Shown one piece after another: positions 57 to 13,082 of a stretch of 23,348 nucleotides of DNA. The translations under genes were made by a program, and so were the position numbers. Location of the stretch: positions 1-23,348 of IMG/VR virus record IMGVR_UViG_3300030101_002855; one strand, written 5' to 3'. This stretch comes from a virus. The notes below the pieces were generated by a model. That model worked only from the letters and a program-made list of their open reading frames with translations. It was not told where the DNA came from and did no database searches. The stretch's first letter is position 1, and each line of letters begins with the position of its first letter.

Positions 57-629
57 TTAGAATGGTAAGTCAGATAGGTCTTGCTTACCATTGTTCCAAG
101 TGTAGATACCAACAGCCTTAGGTGATGTAACCTCTTCTCCTTCTCTGTTAGTCCAAGTTTCGTGCTTTACTTTTATTATTGCAGGCATACCTTCGCAGTT
201 AGAGGGAGTAAATACTGGCAATGCAAACATCTTCTTACCATCTATCTCTTTCTCCTCAGGCTTAATACCTAACGAATCACAAACTTCTTTGAACTCTCTA
301 TTGCCACCAGAGTTAGGCTCTAGGTTGCTCTCTGTAGGGTTTTTAAATCTAAACAAACCCTTAGAGCGTATAGTATTACCTACAAATAAACTACCACTAT
401 GCTCTCCAAATGTCTTATCAGAGTTCTCATTAGCAAGTTTAAATGTTAAGTTGTATATATCTGCTAGATATTTACCACGTATAACAACATCCTCTTTTAA
501 TGTAAACTCTTTTACGTGAGCGTAATAGTCTCCTTCGGGTACTATAACTTTTGGTTTATCTTCTGATGGGTCATAGTAGGACTCTCCTCCCATTACCCCA
601 CCAAGTACTGCATTTACTGAGTTACTCAT
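57..629 (-). CDS. SSB-like single-stranded DNA-binding protein
   Basis: Predicted 190-aa phage single-stranded DNA-binding protein that would coat ssDNA during replication and recombination. What is seen: a Gly-rich N terminus, a central region rich in beta-type residues, and a C terminus ending DLSDLPF, which resembles the acidic D-D-D-I-P-F tip that bacterial SSBs use to dock partner proteins. The ATG at 629 is preferred over the GTG at 635 because AAGGAA lies 7 nt before it; it overlaps the 3' end of the Rad52-like gene (ATGAGTAA). The neighbouring annealing protein and exonuclease support a recombination module. I recognise the tip and context rather than a full OB-fold alignment, so a related family of phage DNA-binding protein is possible. 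Confidence 0.6.
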   Translation of the reverse strand: MSNSVNAVLGGVMGGESYYDPSEDKPKVIVPEGDYYAHVKEFTLKEDVVIRGKYLADIYNLTFKLANENSDKTFGEHSGSLFVGNTIRSKGLFRFKNPTESNLEPNSGGNREFKEVCDSLGIKPEEKEIDGKKMFALPVFTPSNCEGMPAIIKVKHETWTNREGEEVTSPKAVGIYTWNNGKQDLSDLPF

Positions 630-1239
630 TTTCACTTTCCTTTACTTGATTTATCTTGTTTATAACTTTCGCTATATCGTTCTTTTCTATATCACCATTC
701 TCTACTGATAGTGATATCTTTTCCTTCCATTCATCACTAATGCCTTCCATCTCTTCGTATATGTAGTCTATATCTTCTTGACTTAATGATGTATCTTCTA
801 CTCTGTTTCTATATACGTCGTCTGCAATGTTCATATACATATTGAATGCCTTCTTCATAGCATCTGTATTAGCTGACTTGATATCATTACCAACGTCTAC
901 GAAACCTTCCTTATCTCTTAACTTCATTATTCTGTGAGCCGCTGTCATATCCCCTTCTCTCCATATACCACCTTCAAACCACTTGAGCCTTCCGTGTACC
1001 ATAAACGCCTCACTACCTAACATCTCTGTACTTACAATAGTCCAAGACCACCCGGGATAGTACTTATCTGCTATACTTTTCATATAGCTAATCTCCACAT
1101 AGTCCATACCCATCTTCTTCTTTACGAATGTCTTAGGTGTGTCCTCCATAGATACCTTCTCGTGAAGGTCTCTAATGATGTCAAATACTTCTTGCTCTAC
1201 AATAGCACCGTTCTCTATTACTGATAACTCACTACTCAT
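622..1239 (-). CDS. Rad52-type single-strand annealing protein
   Basis: Predicted 205-aa recombinase of the Rad52/22 type, which anneals complementary single strands in phage recombination and repair. Visible features match the family core: a YPGWSW segment near residue 45, a GRLKW strand, MTAAHRI near residue 80-86, and FVDVGNDIKSANTDAMKKAF, the conserved region ending the annealing core. The C-terminal third is acidic and helical, the usual partner-binding tail. I chose the ATG at 1239, with AGGAG 5 nt upstream inside the preceding gene, over a GTG at 1245. It overlaps both neighbours by a few bases and lies between the SSB-like gene and the exonuclease operon, the expected partners of an annealing protein. 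Confidence 0.8.
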   Translation of the reverse strand: MSSELSVIENGAIVEQEVFDIIRDLHEKVSMEDTPKTFVKKKMGMDYVEISYMKSIADKYYPGWSWTIVSTEMLGSEAFMVHGRLKWFEGGIWREGDMTAAHRIMKLRDKEGFVDVGNDIKSANTDAMKKAFNMYMNIADDVYRNRVEDTSLSQEDIDYIYEEMEGISDEWKEKISLSVENGDIEKNDIAKVINKINQVKESENE

Positions 1240-2820: not shown

Positions 2821-3010
2821 AATTTTCTTCTTCATTGTTTAATACTTCATCATACGATATAAACCTTTCTACGTATATACCAGTATCACTTTCTATAGCT
2901 TCTAGCTCATTCTCTACAATCTCTTCTATAGATTTCCCTTCGTTTACGTGTTCATTCCTATCCATATAAACTGCTAGTTCTACTATTATTGTTTTATAGT
3001 TATCATCCAT
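2819..3010 (-). CDS. acidic 63-aa protein, last gene of the amidoligase operon
   Basis: A small, very acidic protein without a recognised family. It has an N-terminal strand-like segment (YKTIIVELAVYM), a KSIEEIVENELEAIESD helix and a GIYVERFISYDEVLN segment, then an acidic tail. The ATG has GGAGAG upstream and overlaps the end of the 373-aa amidoligase by 8 bp, so the two are translationally coupled. The clustering makes it a candidate partner or acceptor of the amidoligase, which is inference only. Its stop touches promoter P1. Confidence 0.6.
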   Translation of the reverse strand: MDDNYKTIIVELAVYMDRNEHVNEGKSIEEIVENELEAIESDTGIYVERFISYDEVLNNEEEN

Positions 3011-4124
3011 TTCTCTCTCCTTTGAATTTAGATGTTCTTTTATTTATATAGGCTTCTAACCTACGTCCAAAAATCTTAGTATTAGGCTCTAAGTCTAACC
3101 AAGACCTAAAGTTTTCCTCACTAAACTTAGATATCTCTATACCTTTATCTATTATAATATTAAGTATTGATATCCAATTAGTTATCTTCTCTTTATTAAT
3201 AGTACCTGAGTGTAATCTAAACTCTATAGTACCGTGATAGTATCTAGAGTGTATGTTCAGACCACAGTACCTAGCATCGTTATACTTATCGTCACTAGGA
3301 TATGAACCCATAGTCTCATAGTACTCATCTATTAGTTGTTGTTCTTCTGTAACTCTATGAAGATAATTCACATTCATTTCAGAATCTCTACACCAATTAG
3401 AACTCTGTCTAGAGTTAGGCATCATACCCTTTAGTATACTCTGGTACTTCTGATATACTATAGCTACGTGTGCTATCTCTCTAGGTGTCTTGTCTATAGA
3501 GTTGAAATGTACGTGGAATCCACAAGTATGATTAACCCATCCACCGTAGTAATCCTTCCATCGCATCAAGTTATCTATGTTCTGCATTAGTAGGTCTCCA
3601 CTAGCAGGGGTAGACACTAGCTCTACACCCATACTATCTTCTTCATCCGTACTAATAGAACCATCTGAGCAGTTAGTCCAGTACATAGGTGTATCAATAG
3701 ATTCTACCTCAGGCGTAATACATTCTATCTCCAAACCTACCAATGTTCTTATAGGGTATGTGAATGTATCTGCAACTCTACTACTAGAAGGTACTGTACT
3801 TGCGACCTCTAGTACAGGAGTTTCAGGTACACAACTCTCACAATACTCTTCACCTCTGTGGTATACTGTATAGTCTCTATTGGTAGCTTCTCCACAACCT
3901 TCACAATAGCAGTATAGCTCATAGAAACAATCTTCACAGTACTCATCTCCGTGAGGAGAAACATTGTAGCCACTATCATAGCTACTATGCGTATTACAAC
4001 TAGCACAGTAGTAATAGTTTTCGTCATTGCAGTCGTCACATACAGTACCACTTGGTTGTTCTTGTACATCGTTTGTAGTCTCGCAACACTCACATACTAA
4101 TTGTTCTTCTGTATCAGGCGGCAT
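3003..4124 (-). CDS. zinc-finger amidoligase 1 (Amidoligase_2 family)
   Basis: A 373-aa predicted ATP-dependent carboxylate-amine ligase with the glutamine-synthetase-like fold of the Amidoligase_2 family. The first 100 residues carry repeated CxxC pairs (Cys11/14, 29/32, 40/43, 63/66, 74/77, 95/98) that look like tandem zinc-binding knuckles. The core follows: GLEIEC at 130, DGSI with GVELVSTP at 154-173, CGFHVHFN at 201-208, and YCGLNIHSRYY plus TIEFRLHSG at 286-307; the Glu and His residues here are the likely metal/ATP ligands. The ATG at 4124 has AGGAG 6 nt upstream. It is a clear paralogue of the 607-aa ligase and lies beside a class II amidotransferase. The amine and acid substrates are unknown. 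Confidence 0.8.
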   Translation of the reverse strand: MPPDTEEQLVCECCETTNDVQEQPSGTVCDDCNDENYYYCASCNTHSSYDSGYNVSPHGDEYCEDCFYELYCYCEGCGEATNRDYTVYHRGEEYCESCVPETPVLEVASTVPSSSRVADTFTYPIRTLVGLEIECITPEVESIDTPMYWTNCSDGSISTDEEDSMGVELVSTPASGDLLMQNIDNLMRWKDYYGGWVNHTCGFHVHFNSIDKTPREIAHVAIVYQKYQSILKGMMPNSRQSSNWCRDSEMNVNYLHRVTEEQQLIDEYYETMGSYPSDDKYNDARYCGLNIHSRYYHGTIEFRLHSGTINKEKITNWISILNIIIDKGIEISKFSEENFRSWLDLEPNTKIFGRRLEAYINKRTSKFKGERNG

Positions 4125-4125
4125 A

Positions 4126-4467
4126 CTAGACTCCTATGTTAGTAGTTATTACTCCAACTATAAAGGCGTTTATTACCTTCAACCATTTCATCTCTTTTAG
4201 TGCATCATATATCTGAGATTCTACGTCATCCTTATCTAGTTCTATGTCTATATCTATAGAACCTAGTAGGTCTATCTGTCGTATTAAAAACTCTAGATAT
4301 TCATCATATGTCTTATCTGCTAGGAAAGGATTCTTCTTAGCTCTATTATATAAAGTCTCTATAATATACTTCTTAGACTTTAGCTTTACAGCTTCGGGGA
4401 ATCCTAGTAGTATTACTTTCTTAGAATGGGACATCATCATCTCTCTCATCTTCGTTACTATATCCAT
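4126..4467 (-). CDS. hypothetical 113-aa protein between ligase and amidotransferase
   Basis: Unrecognised protein with a basic, helical N-terminal half (KLKSKKYIIETLYNRAKKN), an acidic helix (DIDIELDKDDVESQIYDALKEM) and a hydrophobic C-terminal stretch (VINAFIVGVITTNIGV) that could be a buried helix or a weak membrane segment. The frame is open from 4467, overlapping the amidotransferase by 47 bp, but ATGs at 4440, 4437 and 4434 follow a GAGAGA sequence and the shortest form (starting MSHSKK) is quite possible. It ends 1 nt before the next ATG. Its place in the middle of the module makes it a candidate adaptor or substrate; no function is visible. Confidence 0.65.
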   Translation of the reverse strand: MDIVTKMREMMMSHSKKVILLGFPEAVKLKSKKYIIETLYNRAKKNPFLADKTYDEYLEFLIRQIDLLGSIDIDIELDKDDVESQIYDALKEMKWLKVINAFIVGVITTNIGV

Positions 4468-5428
4468 ACTTGTAGTCTTCTATAACCTCGCATTGTATAC
4501 ATATAGGTCTACCATCGTTAGGACTTATCTCTTGCTCAGGTGCGTACTCAAAGCAGAAGTAGCATAACTCATCCTTCTTTGTGTCACACGTACTAACTGA
4601 GTGTAGAGACTTAGTTGCAGGACTCATACTAAACCCATTACCTCTATAGTATTGAGTACCACTATATGGTTTCCATTGATAGTTGTAGTCGTACTGACTC
4701 ATAGTCTCGAACTCTACACTATCTACATTAGGCTTACTATCGAACTTATCTGTATCATAGGTATATATATAGTCTTGCCTGACATTTCTAATAGGTAATC
4801 TAAGACCAGCTCTGGTCATAGCATCCTCCATAATCTGTCTAGTAGAAGCCCATAGTAGAACTCTAGCCTTCTTCCAATAGGCAACCACCATAGGTCTACC
4901 ACTCTCTCTGGCTAGATGTACCTTCTTGTTACTATCCTTCACCCAAGTAATAGCAAAGTCTCCATCTATATCCTCGAATGCTTTACTCATCTCCAACTTG
5001 TTGAGGGCTTGGAATAGAACTTGCGAGTCTACATCTGGGACACTCTTACCTAGTATACTAGATACTTGGTTGTAGTTGTGTATTATACCATTGTGTACAC
5101 CAGTTACACTACCTATATTAAATGGGTGAGCATTCTCTACTTTTACACTACCAGTAGTTGCTAGTCTAACGTGTCCCATAAATATAGTAGTGTCTCTATT
5201 TACTTTATCTAGTAGCGTATTCCACTCAGGATAACCTACTAGTGTTGATGAATCTACTAAGGTCTTGTAGGTATATCTATTATCCTCATTGATAATAGAG
5301 AAACCTGTACTATCAGTACCTCGGATAGATGATTCATCTGTGAGTTCAGTTACTACTCTCTTGAGTATCTCTAACTGATTATCACTTTGTCTTCCGCTAG
5401 TCTTAGCGAAACCAAAGATACCACACAT
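4421..5428 (-). CDS. class II glutamine amidotransferase with zinc ribbon and SSB-like tail
   Basis: A 335-aa protein with an N-terminal Ntn-hydrolase glutaminase domain that would release ammonia from glutamine. Cys2 becomes N-terminal after Met removal (MCGIFGF); RGTDSTG (36-42), GHVRLATTG (85-93), NAHPF (99-103), HNGIIHN (112-118) and GDFAI (156-160) match class II amidotransferases. There is no synthetase domain, so a partner must use the ammonia, or the domain acts as a gamma-glutamyl hydrolase/transferase. A C-terminal zinc ribbon (Cys289/292 and Cys310/313) is followed by an acidic tail ending DDDVPF, nearly the bacterial SSB tip. AAGGAGAT-like ribosome site before the ATG. Located between two amidoligases with which it probably works. 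Confidence 0.85.
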   Translation of the reverse strand: MCGIFGFAKTSGRQSDNQLEILKRVVTELTDESSIRGTDSTGFSIINEDNRYTYKTLVDSSTLVGYPEWNTLLDKVNRDTTIFMGHVRLATTGSVKVENAHPFNIGSVTGVHNGIIHNYNQVSSILGKSVPDVDSQVLFQALNKLEMSKAFEDIDGDFAITWVKDSNKKVHLARESGRPMVVAYWKKARVLLWASTRQIMEDAMTRAGLRLPIRNVRQDYIYTYDTDKFDSKPNVDSVEFETMSQYDYNYQWKPYSGTQYYRGNGFSMSPATKSLHSVSTCDTKKDELCYFCFEYAPEQEISPNDGRPICIQCEVIEDYKYGYSNEDERDDDVPF

Positions 5429-5446: not shown

Positions 5447-7270
5447 TTAACTGTTATTATCTATTTTACTTTCTATGTATTCAGCACCACTGATACCAGT
5501 TATATCTCTAACAATATCTAGTGCTGAAAGTTTTGTATCTATAATTTTTCTGTACAACTTAGGGTTACTATATAATGACTTAGAGCTAGACATTATCTTA
5601 TTAAGGAACATTATCCATTCTTTTATATGATTAGCCCTAATAGTACCTTCGTGATATCTAAACTCTATTGAACCTAGATAAAACCTAGCGTGTATATTAG
5701 TACCTATGTATCTAGCTTCATTGTATTTGTTGTCACTTATAACAGAATCTACCATACCATAGTAGCTAGTTATTAGATGACCAAGTGTATCTATCTTAGC
5801 TATTTCTTTAGGTGTCATAGTAATTACTCTTGCAAAAGAAGTATCTCTTCTATTATCAGGTATACTGTCATATATTACACTCTGTATTCTAGACATAATC
5901 ATAAGTAGAGACTTTATCTCTTTGAACCCCATATCTAGAGCGTTCATATGTATATGTATACCACAGCTATTATCTACAGTATTCCACTCTGTTTCGTGAG
6001 CTTCTTCTAGTTGGTCTAGTGCTATCTCAACATCTTTACCTATAACAGGTTTTCTAGTAACAAACTCCACACCTCCTTGATTTAGAGAACCATCATCAAC
6101 TACTTTGAAATATCTAGGTATCTCTCTATCTTCATCTATATACTCAGTAGCACCTTCTGTCTCTGTTATCACCTCGCTTTCTATACCTACGAATGTATCA
6201 AAAACATTCTTAGCAGAATACTTTCTAGGTAGCGGACTGTAGTTGAATGGGTTAGCTAGGTATGTAGTTAGTAGAATGTCTGCACAGTCACTACAGTATT
6301 GTCTACTAAATATATATCTATAATTAGATTCTAGATTGAACTGTCTTATAGTCTCATTTCTATCATCACTCTCTCTAAGATTATCTACATCTATCATCTC
6401 ATAACATCTACACCTACTACAAGTTCTAAGAGTACCCTCATAGCAAGTAGGGCATATATTAGTTATATCACTATTTGCGAATATAACATCTGTACTGTTT
6501 CTTTGTAGAGCAGTATCTCTTGTTATACCTATTCTATTAGATATTTCCATATCTACATGGCAACAATCACAAGGTATCTCTAGTACATCATAACAAGAAC
6601 TACAAATAGGCTTTGTTACTCCATCTGGCATAGCAACATCTGTTATACTAGACCTTGGTACTATATCTCCACAGTTACCACATACTTCATATCTACCTCT
6701 AGACATTTCTATGTCGTGCTTGTCCATATATGTAGTCATATGACCAAACGTATCTCTATTTAGAAAGAATCTATTTCTATGTAGTCCGTGTCTACTATCA
6801 GTCTTATCTACAAACTCTATTTGTCTATATGCTTCCCATATTAGAAAGCACTTAGACTCATCAGATGCGTACATCTCTAACGAAGTACATACATCATATG
6901 TATCACCCTGAGAATAGAACTGTACTTCATTTACACCCTGAGGCATATGTATTAAGTATGTATCTCTAGACTGACTCCAAGTTACAGTAAGTAGTCTCTT
7001 ATCTGCAAATAGAACATCTAGGACTCTACATATAATACGTAGACCATCACTTCTTTCTAGTAGTAGGCAAGGTATATTTTGCTTATAGGTACTTGATACA
7101 TCTATTAGTTTGAATATTCTAGTAGATATACCTTCTACAGTATCCACATCTACTCTAGCACTGTAGTCTAGCATAGCACTCTCTACATCTATATCTCTGA
7201 AGCTAGTAGCTTGATGTACTGTTCTAGCGTAGTTACTATTTACTAGATAGACTTCATTTGAATAGACCAT
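5447..7270 (-). CDS. zinc-finger amidoligase 2 (Amidoligase_2 family)
   Basis: A 607-aa paralogue of the 373-aa ligase. Residues 1-190 form an additional N-terminal region without recognised motifs. Residues 197-330 hold CxxC pairs (197/200, 223/226, 234/237, 273/276, 284/287, 326/329) consistent with zinc fingers. The ligase core runs from about 360: FVGIESEV, DDGSL with GVEFVTRKP (392-408), CGIHIHMN (436-443), YIGTNIHARFY and SIEFRYHEGTI (521-544), then HIKEWIMFLN, each matching the shorter paralogue. Predicted to form an amide or isopeptide bond using ATP; substrate unknown. It is overlapped at the start by the 48-aa gene and followed 18 nt later by the amidotransferase, indicating one operon from promoter P7. 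Confidence 0.8.
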   Translation of the reverse strand: MVYSNEVYLVNSNYARTVHQATSFRDIDVESAMLDYSARVDVDTVEGISTRIFKLIDVSSTYKQNIPCLLLERSDGLRIICRVLDVLFADKRLLTVTWSQSRDTYLIHMPQGVNEVQFYSQGDTYDVCTSLEMYASDESKCFLIWEAYRQIEFVDKTDSRHGLHRNRFFLNRDTFGHMTTYMDKHDIEMSRGRYEVCGNCGDIVPRSSITDVAMPDGVTKPICSSCYDVLEIPCDCCHVDMEISNRIGITRDTALQRNSTDVIFANSDITNICPTCYEGTLRTCSRCRCYEMIDVDNLRESDDRNETIRQFNLESNYRYIFSRQYCSDCADILLTTYLANPFNYSPLPRKYSAKNVFDTFVGIESEVITETEGATEYIDEDREIPRYFKVVDDGSLNQGGVEFVTRKPVIGKDVEIALDQLEEAHETEWNTVDNSCGIHIHMNALDMGFKEIKSLLMIMSRIQSVIYDSIPDNRRDTSFARVITMTPKEIAKIDTLGHLITSYYGMVDSVISDNKYNEARYIGTNIHARFYLGSIEFRYHEGTIRANHIKEWIMFLNKIMSSSKSLYSNPKLYRKIIDTKLSALDIVRDITGISGAEYIESKIDNNS

Positions 7271-7530: not shown

Positions 7531-7950
7531 CTAAATGGGCCAATAGTAATCCATATCTCTACGTTCTTTCCATCTATACTTAGAGTAATACTCTAAGTCC
7601 TTTCTAAGTAGGTTGCTTCTATGTGAAGCGTGTACTCTATTATCGCCTATCCAAGAAGGCATCTTTATAGAATCTGGAAGACCTACAAGTTCCATAGTAT
7701 TATTATAGTCTCTAAGTATCCATTCTTCTATCATTTTGTTTTTGTAGAGCAACAACGCTTCCTCGTAGCCTTCCCACATTAGAACGGCTGGATGTCTACG
7801 CCAACCCTTGTATTTATTGCCTTGTAGAGTTGGGTTATCTACTAATACATTGTAGATTTGCAAGGCTTCTACTCTCTGCTTTCCTAGTCTACGATAGTCT
7901 AGTACTTGTGCAGATAGAGTAAAATCTTCGTATGGTAGAAATGTCTGCAT
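7531..7950 (-). CDS. MSMEG_6728-like / pyrimidine-dimer glycosylase-related protein
   Basis: A 139-aa protein starting MQTFLPYEDF and containing SAQVLDYRRLGKQRVEA, a KGWRRHPAVLMWEGYE segment, and a SHRSNLLRKDLEYYSKY segment ending in YYWPI. These match a widespread family often annotated as pyrimidine-dimer DNA glycosylase/endonuclease V-like or MSMEG_6728 family. Whether this phage version cuts at DNA lesions is not shown; the family assignment is firmer than the activity. Length is typical. The start overlaps the stop of the upstream 62-aa gene (TAATG) and lacks a strong ribosome site, pointing to coupled translation. Confidence 0.7.
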   Translation of the reverse strand: MQTFLPYEDFTLSAQVLDYRRLGKQRVEALQIYNVLVDNPTLQGNKYKGWRRHPAVLMWEGYEEALLLYKNKMIEEWILRDYNNTMELVGLPDSIKMPSWIGDNRVHASHRSNLLRKDLEYYSKYRWKERRDMDYYWPI

Positions 7951-12512: not shown

Positions 12513-12724
12513 TGAATCTATACGAAATAGTGATGGAGGTTCTAGAGCACGCTGACGACAACGATATGTCAATAGGTGATGATATGTCAAAGCAAAGCAT
12601 TGCTACTGAAATCTATGAACTGTTTTACGAAAGTCAAGTTTATTCTAGTTTTATTGATAGTGGCTATATGAGTGACATAAGTGACTATTGGCAATTTAGA
12701 CAAGACCTAGATGAAGACGAATAA
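12512..12724 (+). CDS. hypothetical acidic 70-aa protein
   Basis: Acidic, unrecognised protein between the small terminase and the cyclotransferase-like gene, overlapping both (TGATG with the first; 14 bp with the second). It has an N-terminal helix (NLYEIVMEVLEHA), a SKQSIATEIYELFYESQ helix and an aromatic, acidic C terminus. Overlapping starts indicate coupled translation; there is no sign of function. Confidence 0.6.
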   Translation: MNLYEIVMEVLEHADDNDMSIGDDMSKQSIATEIYELFYESQVYSSFIDSGYMSDISDYWQFRQDLDEDE

Positions 12725-13082
12725 GTTAGCAGTATACGGAACACTTAGGAATGGTGAGCGAGATACTTGGAAAGTAGATGGCTACTCATTAGTGTTTCCC
12801 GGACATAGAGATTATCCAGCCGCATTTATTGACGAAAATCAAAATGAGATGATTGTAGAGGTTATTGATGTTGATAATATGGATTTAGCTGGTTACGACA
12901 GGTATGAAGGTGTATCTTATGGATTATATGAAAGAAGAATGGTTAAAGCATATAACGATGATGATGAAGTAGATGCTTGGATGTATACGATAGGCCCAGC
13001 TTTGTTGCAAAATAATACCGTGTTTGAACTTGTACCTAAGAAAGATTGGATGTCAGAAGATTGTCTAAAGCTCCGAACATAA
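12711..13082 (+). CDS. AIG2 / gamma-glutamylcyclotransferase-like protein
   Basis: A 123-aa protein with the family start LAVYGTLRNGERD (the YGTLR nucleotide/glutamyl-binding loop) and YDRYEGVSYGLYERRMV, in which the Glu is in the position expected for the catalytic acid. Members cyclise gamma-glutamyl groups to 5-oxoproline, freeing the amine, so they can reverse gamma-glutamyl amides. This would complement the amidoligases on the other strand. It overlaps the large terminase start by 37 bp and shares its operon. Activity is inferred from family motifs only. Confidence 0.75.
   Translation: MKTNKLAVYGTLRNGERDTWKVDGYSLVFPGHRDYPAAFIDENQNEMIVEVIDVDNMDLAGYDRYEGVSYGLYERRMVKAYNDDDEVDAWMYTIGPALLQNNTVFELVPKKDWMSEDCLKLRT

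Follow-up and report, generated by a model that had tools for sequence, protein, structure and literature searches.

A phage glutamine amidotransferase with a C-terminal end resembling the SSB tip, encoded over the start of the downstream gene

The C-terminus of a phage glutamine amidotransferase reads DDDVPF, which raises the question of whether an enzyme can carry a docking peptide of the single-stranded DNA-binding protein (SSB) type, or whether its end has a simpler origin in the way the locus is encoded. The gene lies in a 23,348-nucleotide stretch of viral DNA (the window), which opens a virus record of 63,940 bases (IMGVR_UViG_3300030101_002855). A sequence-only reading had drawn attention to this end and proposed that the enzyme is brought to the replication or recombination machinery by imitating the SSB tip, thereby linking amidoligase chemistry to DNA. 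Direct reading of the codons confirmed the starting observation, namely that DDDVPF differs from the E. coli SSB tip DDDIPF by one conservative change, and the features concerned are:

4421..5428, minus strand: class II glutamine amidotransferase (GAT), 335 aa, consisting of an Ntn domain, a CxxC...CxxC zinc-ribbon-like segment and a predicted disordered C-terminal tail
4421..4441, minus strand: codons for D-D-D-V-P-F and the TAA stop, by direct reading (six codons at 4424-4441, stop at 4421-4423)

GAT is a class II glutamine amidotransferase by its Ntn fold, its N-terminal Cys nucleophile and its catalytic residues. It matches PF13522 in Pfam with an E-value of 1.3e-17, its structural model matches the fold of the GlmS glutaminase domain in Foldseek (E 6e-12), and its N-terminus is MCGIFGFA. 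The residues C2, R88, N113-G114 and D134, as well as the four cysteines of the ribbon, are invariant across 20 relatives. This four-Cys ribbon sits beside the catalytic domain and precedes the tail, in which residues 314-335 have pLDDT values below 50 in AlphaFold and are thus predicted to be disordered. The C-terminus of the ORF reads ...CIQCEVIEDYKYGYSNEDERDDDVPF*, with NEDERDDDVPF as the last residues, and the tail peptide is SNEDERDDDVPF.

We examined the fate of this end in 57 related loci from IMG/VR; an alignment-based scan added only distant ones. In a tree built on the GAT catalytic domain the tail was confined to one clade of 39 members, with 17 phages as the outgroup. A terminal Phe is seen in 29/39 clade members and Pro-Phe in 18/39, the latter as DDDVPF, DNDVPF, DNTPF, EDSCPF, EGSCPF, EEAPF, EDFPF, EEFPF, DRVPF and DRFPF. 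The penultimate Pro, although present in the window's GAT, is not kept among its orthologues: of the 29 proteins that end in Phe, 11 have S, K, G or L in its place (WFSF, WFKF, WFGF, WSLF, NESLF, KVLF). Ten further members, falling in two sublineages, have lost the Phe end altogether (CDKK, CGG, GEK; GVS, RVS, RIS), and basic residues lie near the end in several lineages, as in DDRSWFSF, KDDRFPF and DDKVLF. No PF end was found outside the clade in the 17 outgroup phages, in 46 more distant loci or in eight named phages with the module, and we rejected the tip as a trait of the GAT family on account of the latter two sets. The sequence-only reading had stated that homologues with the module but no acidic PF end would speak against its proposal; this is largely the case outside one clade and partly the case inside it. 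Among 654 distinct ORFs of at least 70 residues in the related loci, 60 have a terminal Phe; Pro-Phe ends number 41, and all 41 are copies of GAT or of an SSB-like protein (see below). A Pro-Phe end is therefore not a common accident in these loci, but its presence in GAT may go back to a single event. In the GAT clade the terminal (Pro-)Phe is of long standing and has been retained through much drift.

A second GAT is encoded in the same record. From about 43.8 kb onwards the record repeats the gene order of the window at about 67-92% DNA identity; it joins two related phages, the second of them partial, most likely through an assembly join. The sister GAT (48136-49065), which is nearly identical to the GAT of contig L007, ends EGVNTCDKK, and the sister SSB-like protein ends DLSDMPF. 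This second GAT was considered as independent support for the tip and rejected, because it belongs to the joined sister phage and has no tip.

The codons of the tip are shared with the start of the next gene downstream, an overlap that had escaped the sequence-only reading:

4126..4467, minus strand: D113, the conserved gene downstream of GAT, with the core SKKVILLGFP...KLKSKK, present in nearly all relatives at 36-98% identity
4432..4440, minus strand: three consecutive in-frame ATG codons of D113, which read D-D-D-V in the GAT frame
4441..4447, minus strand: purine-rich, Shine-Dalgarno-like GAGAGAG, which reads E-R-D in the GAT frame; AGGAG or GGAGG stands there in most relatives

The D113 protein is small, rich in lysine at its start and hydrophobic at its C-terminus; no Pfam family matches it, its PHROG match, to a family of unknown function, is weak, and it has no named relatives in the phage collection searched. 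The longest D113 ORF begins at 4467, and the likely starts are at 4440, 4437 or 4434. In the GAT frame the junction reads GAG AGA GAT GAT GAT GTC CCA TTC TAA, that is, E-R-D-D-D-V-P-F-stop, and in the D113 frame the end of GAT reads ATG ATG ATG TCC CAT TCT AAG, that is, M-M-M-S-H-S-K. Each D113 codon thus spans the second and third positions of a GAT codon and the first position of the next, such that the first position of each GAT codon is the wobble position of D113. Wherever D113 has an ATG, the GAT frame must accordingly carry a codon with AT as its last two bases, here Asp or Asn, and then one with G as its first base, which encodes Val, Glu, Asp, Ala or Gly. Each of the 29 Phe-ending relatives has a D113-frame ATG, which lies 11-26 nt ahead of the GAT stop and is itself preceded by a run of mostly purines. 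None of the 17 outgroup phages has the tail; in 12 of them the start of D113 coincides with the GAT stop or lies beyond it and in two the overlap is a single base, while three (L035, L051 and L052) have a longer overlap yet lack an acidic Phe end.

As a control from the same genomes we considered an unrelated overlapping junction, at which a Rad52-like ORF runs into the gene for the SSB-like protein. Here the Shine-Dalgarno sequence and AATGAG give rise to the acidic tails KESENE, KGKDNE and KEEVNE, which shows that acidic tails are generic at overlapping gene junctions. Since the overlapping start of D113 yields acidic residues by itself, the acidity of the GAT tail needs no docking function. 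Neither is the acidic run conserved for its own sake, as its codons are also those of the D113 Shine-Dalgarno region and ATG triplets, and basic residues intrude in several lineages.

These observations lead us to the account that we prefer, to which we give an even chance: DDDVPF would be a lineage-specific disordered tail of an ordinary phage GAT, encoded at the overlap with the D113 start, with a retained terminal Phe of minor use. The acidic residues would mostly be overprinted, the Shine-Dalgarno region giving E/R/D and the ATG codons giving D-D-D-V, and the arrangement would be expected to couple translation of D113 to termination of GAT. The terminal (Pro-)Phe would probably add weakly to a protein contact, being dispensable and not maintained as an SSB tip.

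One alternative, which we consider unlikely, is that the whole of DDDVPF, Phe included, follows from the coding of D113 and has no role at all. In the first part of the tip the three Met codons leave DDD-V no freedom, and in the last part TTC TAA is a Ser-Lys codon pair of D113 read in the other frame. One contig (L018) illustrates this dependence directly: its GAT ends in Lys because the Ser of D113 is coded there by AGT instead of TCT. Likewise, the terminal Phe codon is TTC in 29/29 cases and never the commoner TTT; D113 may hold the second and third bases of this codon, because both are the first two of its Ser codon and TTC is always used. Nevertheless, the N-terminal extension of D113 and its Ser vary outside the Phe-ending group (Asn, Asp or nothing), the outgroup proteins starting almost directly with the lysine-rich core. 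As the residues of this extension are not conserved, D113 alone does not explain the Phe. It also leaves the first T of TTC free, as this is its wobble base, and still this T never changes.

We used the tree to gauge whether the terminal codons are under selection on the GAT side. Within the Phe-ending group the TTC codon shows no changes, against 3-6 changes at each of the six preceding bases. In simulations on the tree the probability that the first T never changes was 0.033 given an ancestral T and 0.017 unconditioned, and 4/40 conserved four-fold columns were equally invariant. The C that Pro requires at the D113 wobble position persists in 21/29, with P = 0.19 given an ancestral C and 0.016 unconditioned, and no four-fold column has that many C. 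Synonymous sites between lineages are mostly, and not fully, randomised (a match of 0.59 versus 0.44 expected if independent). Recoding of D113 by codon usage produced, depending on the locus, a Phe in 9-43% of cases and Pro-Phe in 0-14%. The Phe-ending group is defined by the Phe end itself, which weakens any test of selection on it. We rejected strong selection on PF, the signal in the codon statistics being only modest; these comparisons weakly suggest some selection on the GAT tail itself, at its terminal Phe.

The proposal of SSB mimicry needs to be weighed against the protein of the same phages that most resembles an SSB:

57..635, minus strand: SSB-like protein ending DLPF, with a predicted OB-type fold and a PF end in 40/40 complete relatives

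This protein does end in DLPF (DLSDLPF*), as the sequence-only reading had stated. It had also placed the gene in the next operon, a placement that is not clearly borne out, as the genes from 7270 to 57 all share one strand and are spaced by short gaps only. Bacterial SSBs are the best Foldseek matches of its model (top probability 0.98, but an E-value of only 0.03), with a TM-score to the target of about 0.5; Pfam and PHROGs searches with the protein gave no match, and no named relatives were found in the phage collection. The label 'SSB-like' appears reasonable on the strength of the structural model. Its PF tip is kept in all 40 complete copies at identities down to about 40%, nearly always as D-x-P-F, with a few GLPF or ELPF. 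Directly upstream, at 622-1245 on the minus strand, lies a possible Rad52/annealase-type protein (weak PF04098 match, E 0.03), and a PD-(D/E)XK nuclease is encoded at 1880-2755. The three likely form a recombination set.

Genuine mimicry would mean that the GAT tail docks on SSB-tip receptors of the host or the phage, in their Phe pocket and on their basic ridge, and carries GAT to sites of replication or recombination, which we hold to be unlikely. The single conservative change from DDDIPF, the 18 clade members with PF ends, the restriction of such ends in these phages to GAT and the SSB-like protein, the weak signs of selection on Phe and Pro, and the accessibility of a tail that is predicted to be disordered all speak in its favor. 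Against it, the D113 start region explains the acidic residues, basic residues adjoin the end in several lineages, and the tip is lost in two sublineages and absent from the wider GAT family. The replacement of Pro in 11/29 also tells against it: in E. coli ssb-113, a change of the penultimate Pro to Ser leaves a much lower affinity for SSB-tip receptors, and without the Phe that affinity is abolished (PMC10164576). Nor did we see co-variation of the two tips across phages. They do not vary together because PF is constant in the SSB-like protein while GAT ends in WFSF, WSLF, NESLF, KVLF, WFKF, WFGF, NTPF, SCPF or EDFPF, and the sister phage without a GAT tip keeps DMPF on its SSB-like protein. 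A literature search for a described phage non-SSB protein with an SSB-tip mimic found nothing relevant.

Hence the likeness of the tip stands, and mimicry of SSB is possible, but mimicry as a conserved function is not supported, and the link of GAT chemistry to DNA is weak. For the Pro-Phe lineages, those with DVPF, FPF and CPF ends among them, we hold docking at SSB-tip receptors to be unlikely. That the tip in the DVPF, FPF and CPF lineages is a working SSB-tip mimic, which was made by overprinting, was kept for its Pro-Phe and draws glutamine-dependent amidoligase chemistry to complexes of replication or recombination, is less likely still.

The remaining alternative concerns the neighbors of GAT, which include two amidoligases:

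5447..7270, minus strand: Amidoligase_2 protein with Cys-rich segments, directly upstream of GAT (PF12224, E 1e-18)
3003..4124, minus strand: second Amidoligase_2 protein, downstream of D113 (PF12224, E 1e-24)
12711..13082, plus strand: gamma-glutamyl cyclotransferase, AIG2-like (PF06094, E 1e-12)

The GATase is adjacent to the Amidoligase_2 genes, an arrangement that nearly all close relatives share. In the upstream amidoligase the ligase domain is preceded by a long region rich in Cys, with several CxxC pairs; among relatives this protein diverges much faster than GAT, to identities as low as about 25-40%. The gamma-glutamyl cyclotransferase gene sits between the terminase genes, away from the amidoligase module. 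Beside the module a pyrimidine dimer DNA glycosylase is encoded at 7531-7950 on the minus strand (PF03013, E 1e-21), and it is found near the module in many relatives. That the Phe tail makes a contact within an amidoligase/GAT assembly, for example by docking on one of the flanking amidoligases, with the SSB likeness incidental, is the least likely of the readings considered here, for although the Phe end persists while the penultimate residue varies among P, S, L, K and G, the GAT gene keeps company with the amidoligases and the tail follows the four-Cys ribbon beside the catalytic domain, two sublineages without the tail still keep both amidoligases.

We accordingly return to the overprinted tail of an ordinary GAT as the preferred account. 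The enzyme itself would most likely supply glutamine-derived ammonia to the flanking amidoligases, in a pathway of peptide ligation or peptide modification. For phage amidoligase/amidotransferase modules, an SSB-tip mimic, if true, would point to DNA-associated chemistry. The useful point of the present case is the codon-level explanation of the acidic tip. In compact phage genomes, acidic C-termini at gene junctions arise where the translation signals of the following gene, its ribosome-binding site and start codon, are read out of frame, so that a motif match at a junction should be tested codon by codon before mimicry is claimed.

The GAT tip shares with that of E. coli SSB (...DFDDDIPF) an acidic run, a hydrophobic residue, Pro and a terminal Phe, at the end of a predicted disordered tail. 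It differs in being borne by an enzyme, in having its acidic residues imposed by an overlapping gene start, and in the poor conservation of the Pro and of the whole tip in close relatives. Phage modules of amidoligase, Gn-AT-II and COOH-NH2 ligase genes (phiEco32-type) were reportedly described by Iyer et al. in 2009, and the module of the window is itself of this known kind of phage amidoligase/GATase module. As in the phiEco32-type modules of RIO-1, PaP4 and QDWS535, a class II GATase stands beside Amidoligase_2, with a gamma-glutamyl cyclotransferase elsewhere in the window. The latter enzyme is a usual partner in the modules of other phages and is also encoded near the module in RIO-1 and PaP4. 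Unlike those modules, that of the window has a GAT whose C-terminal region is different, with a four-Cys ribbon and an acidic tail, and two flanking Amidoligase_2 proteins. It belongs to an uncultured, probably marine, phage group without a close named relative. The roles proposed for such modules, as cited in PMC10580990, include modification of the cell wall against superinfection and the making of secondary metabolites. The marine OM43 phages MEP401 and MEP402 (PMC10580990) encode a PF12224 amidoligase, a PF13522 GATase and a metallophosphoesterase, the last of which is likewise present in the window's phage by a PHROG match, and the likeness to these phages is one of gene content.
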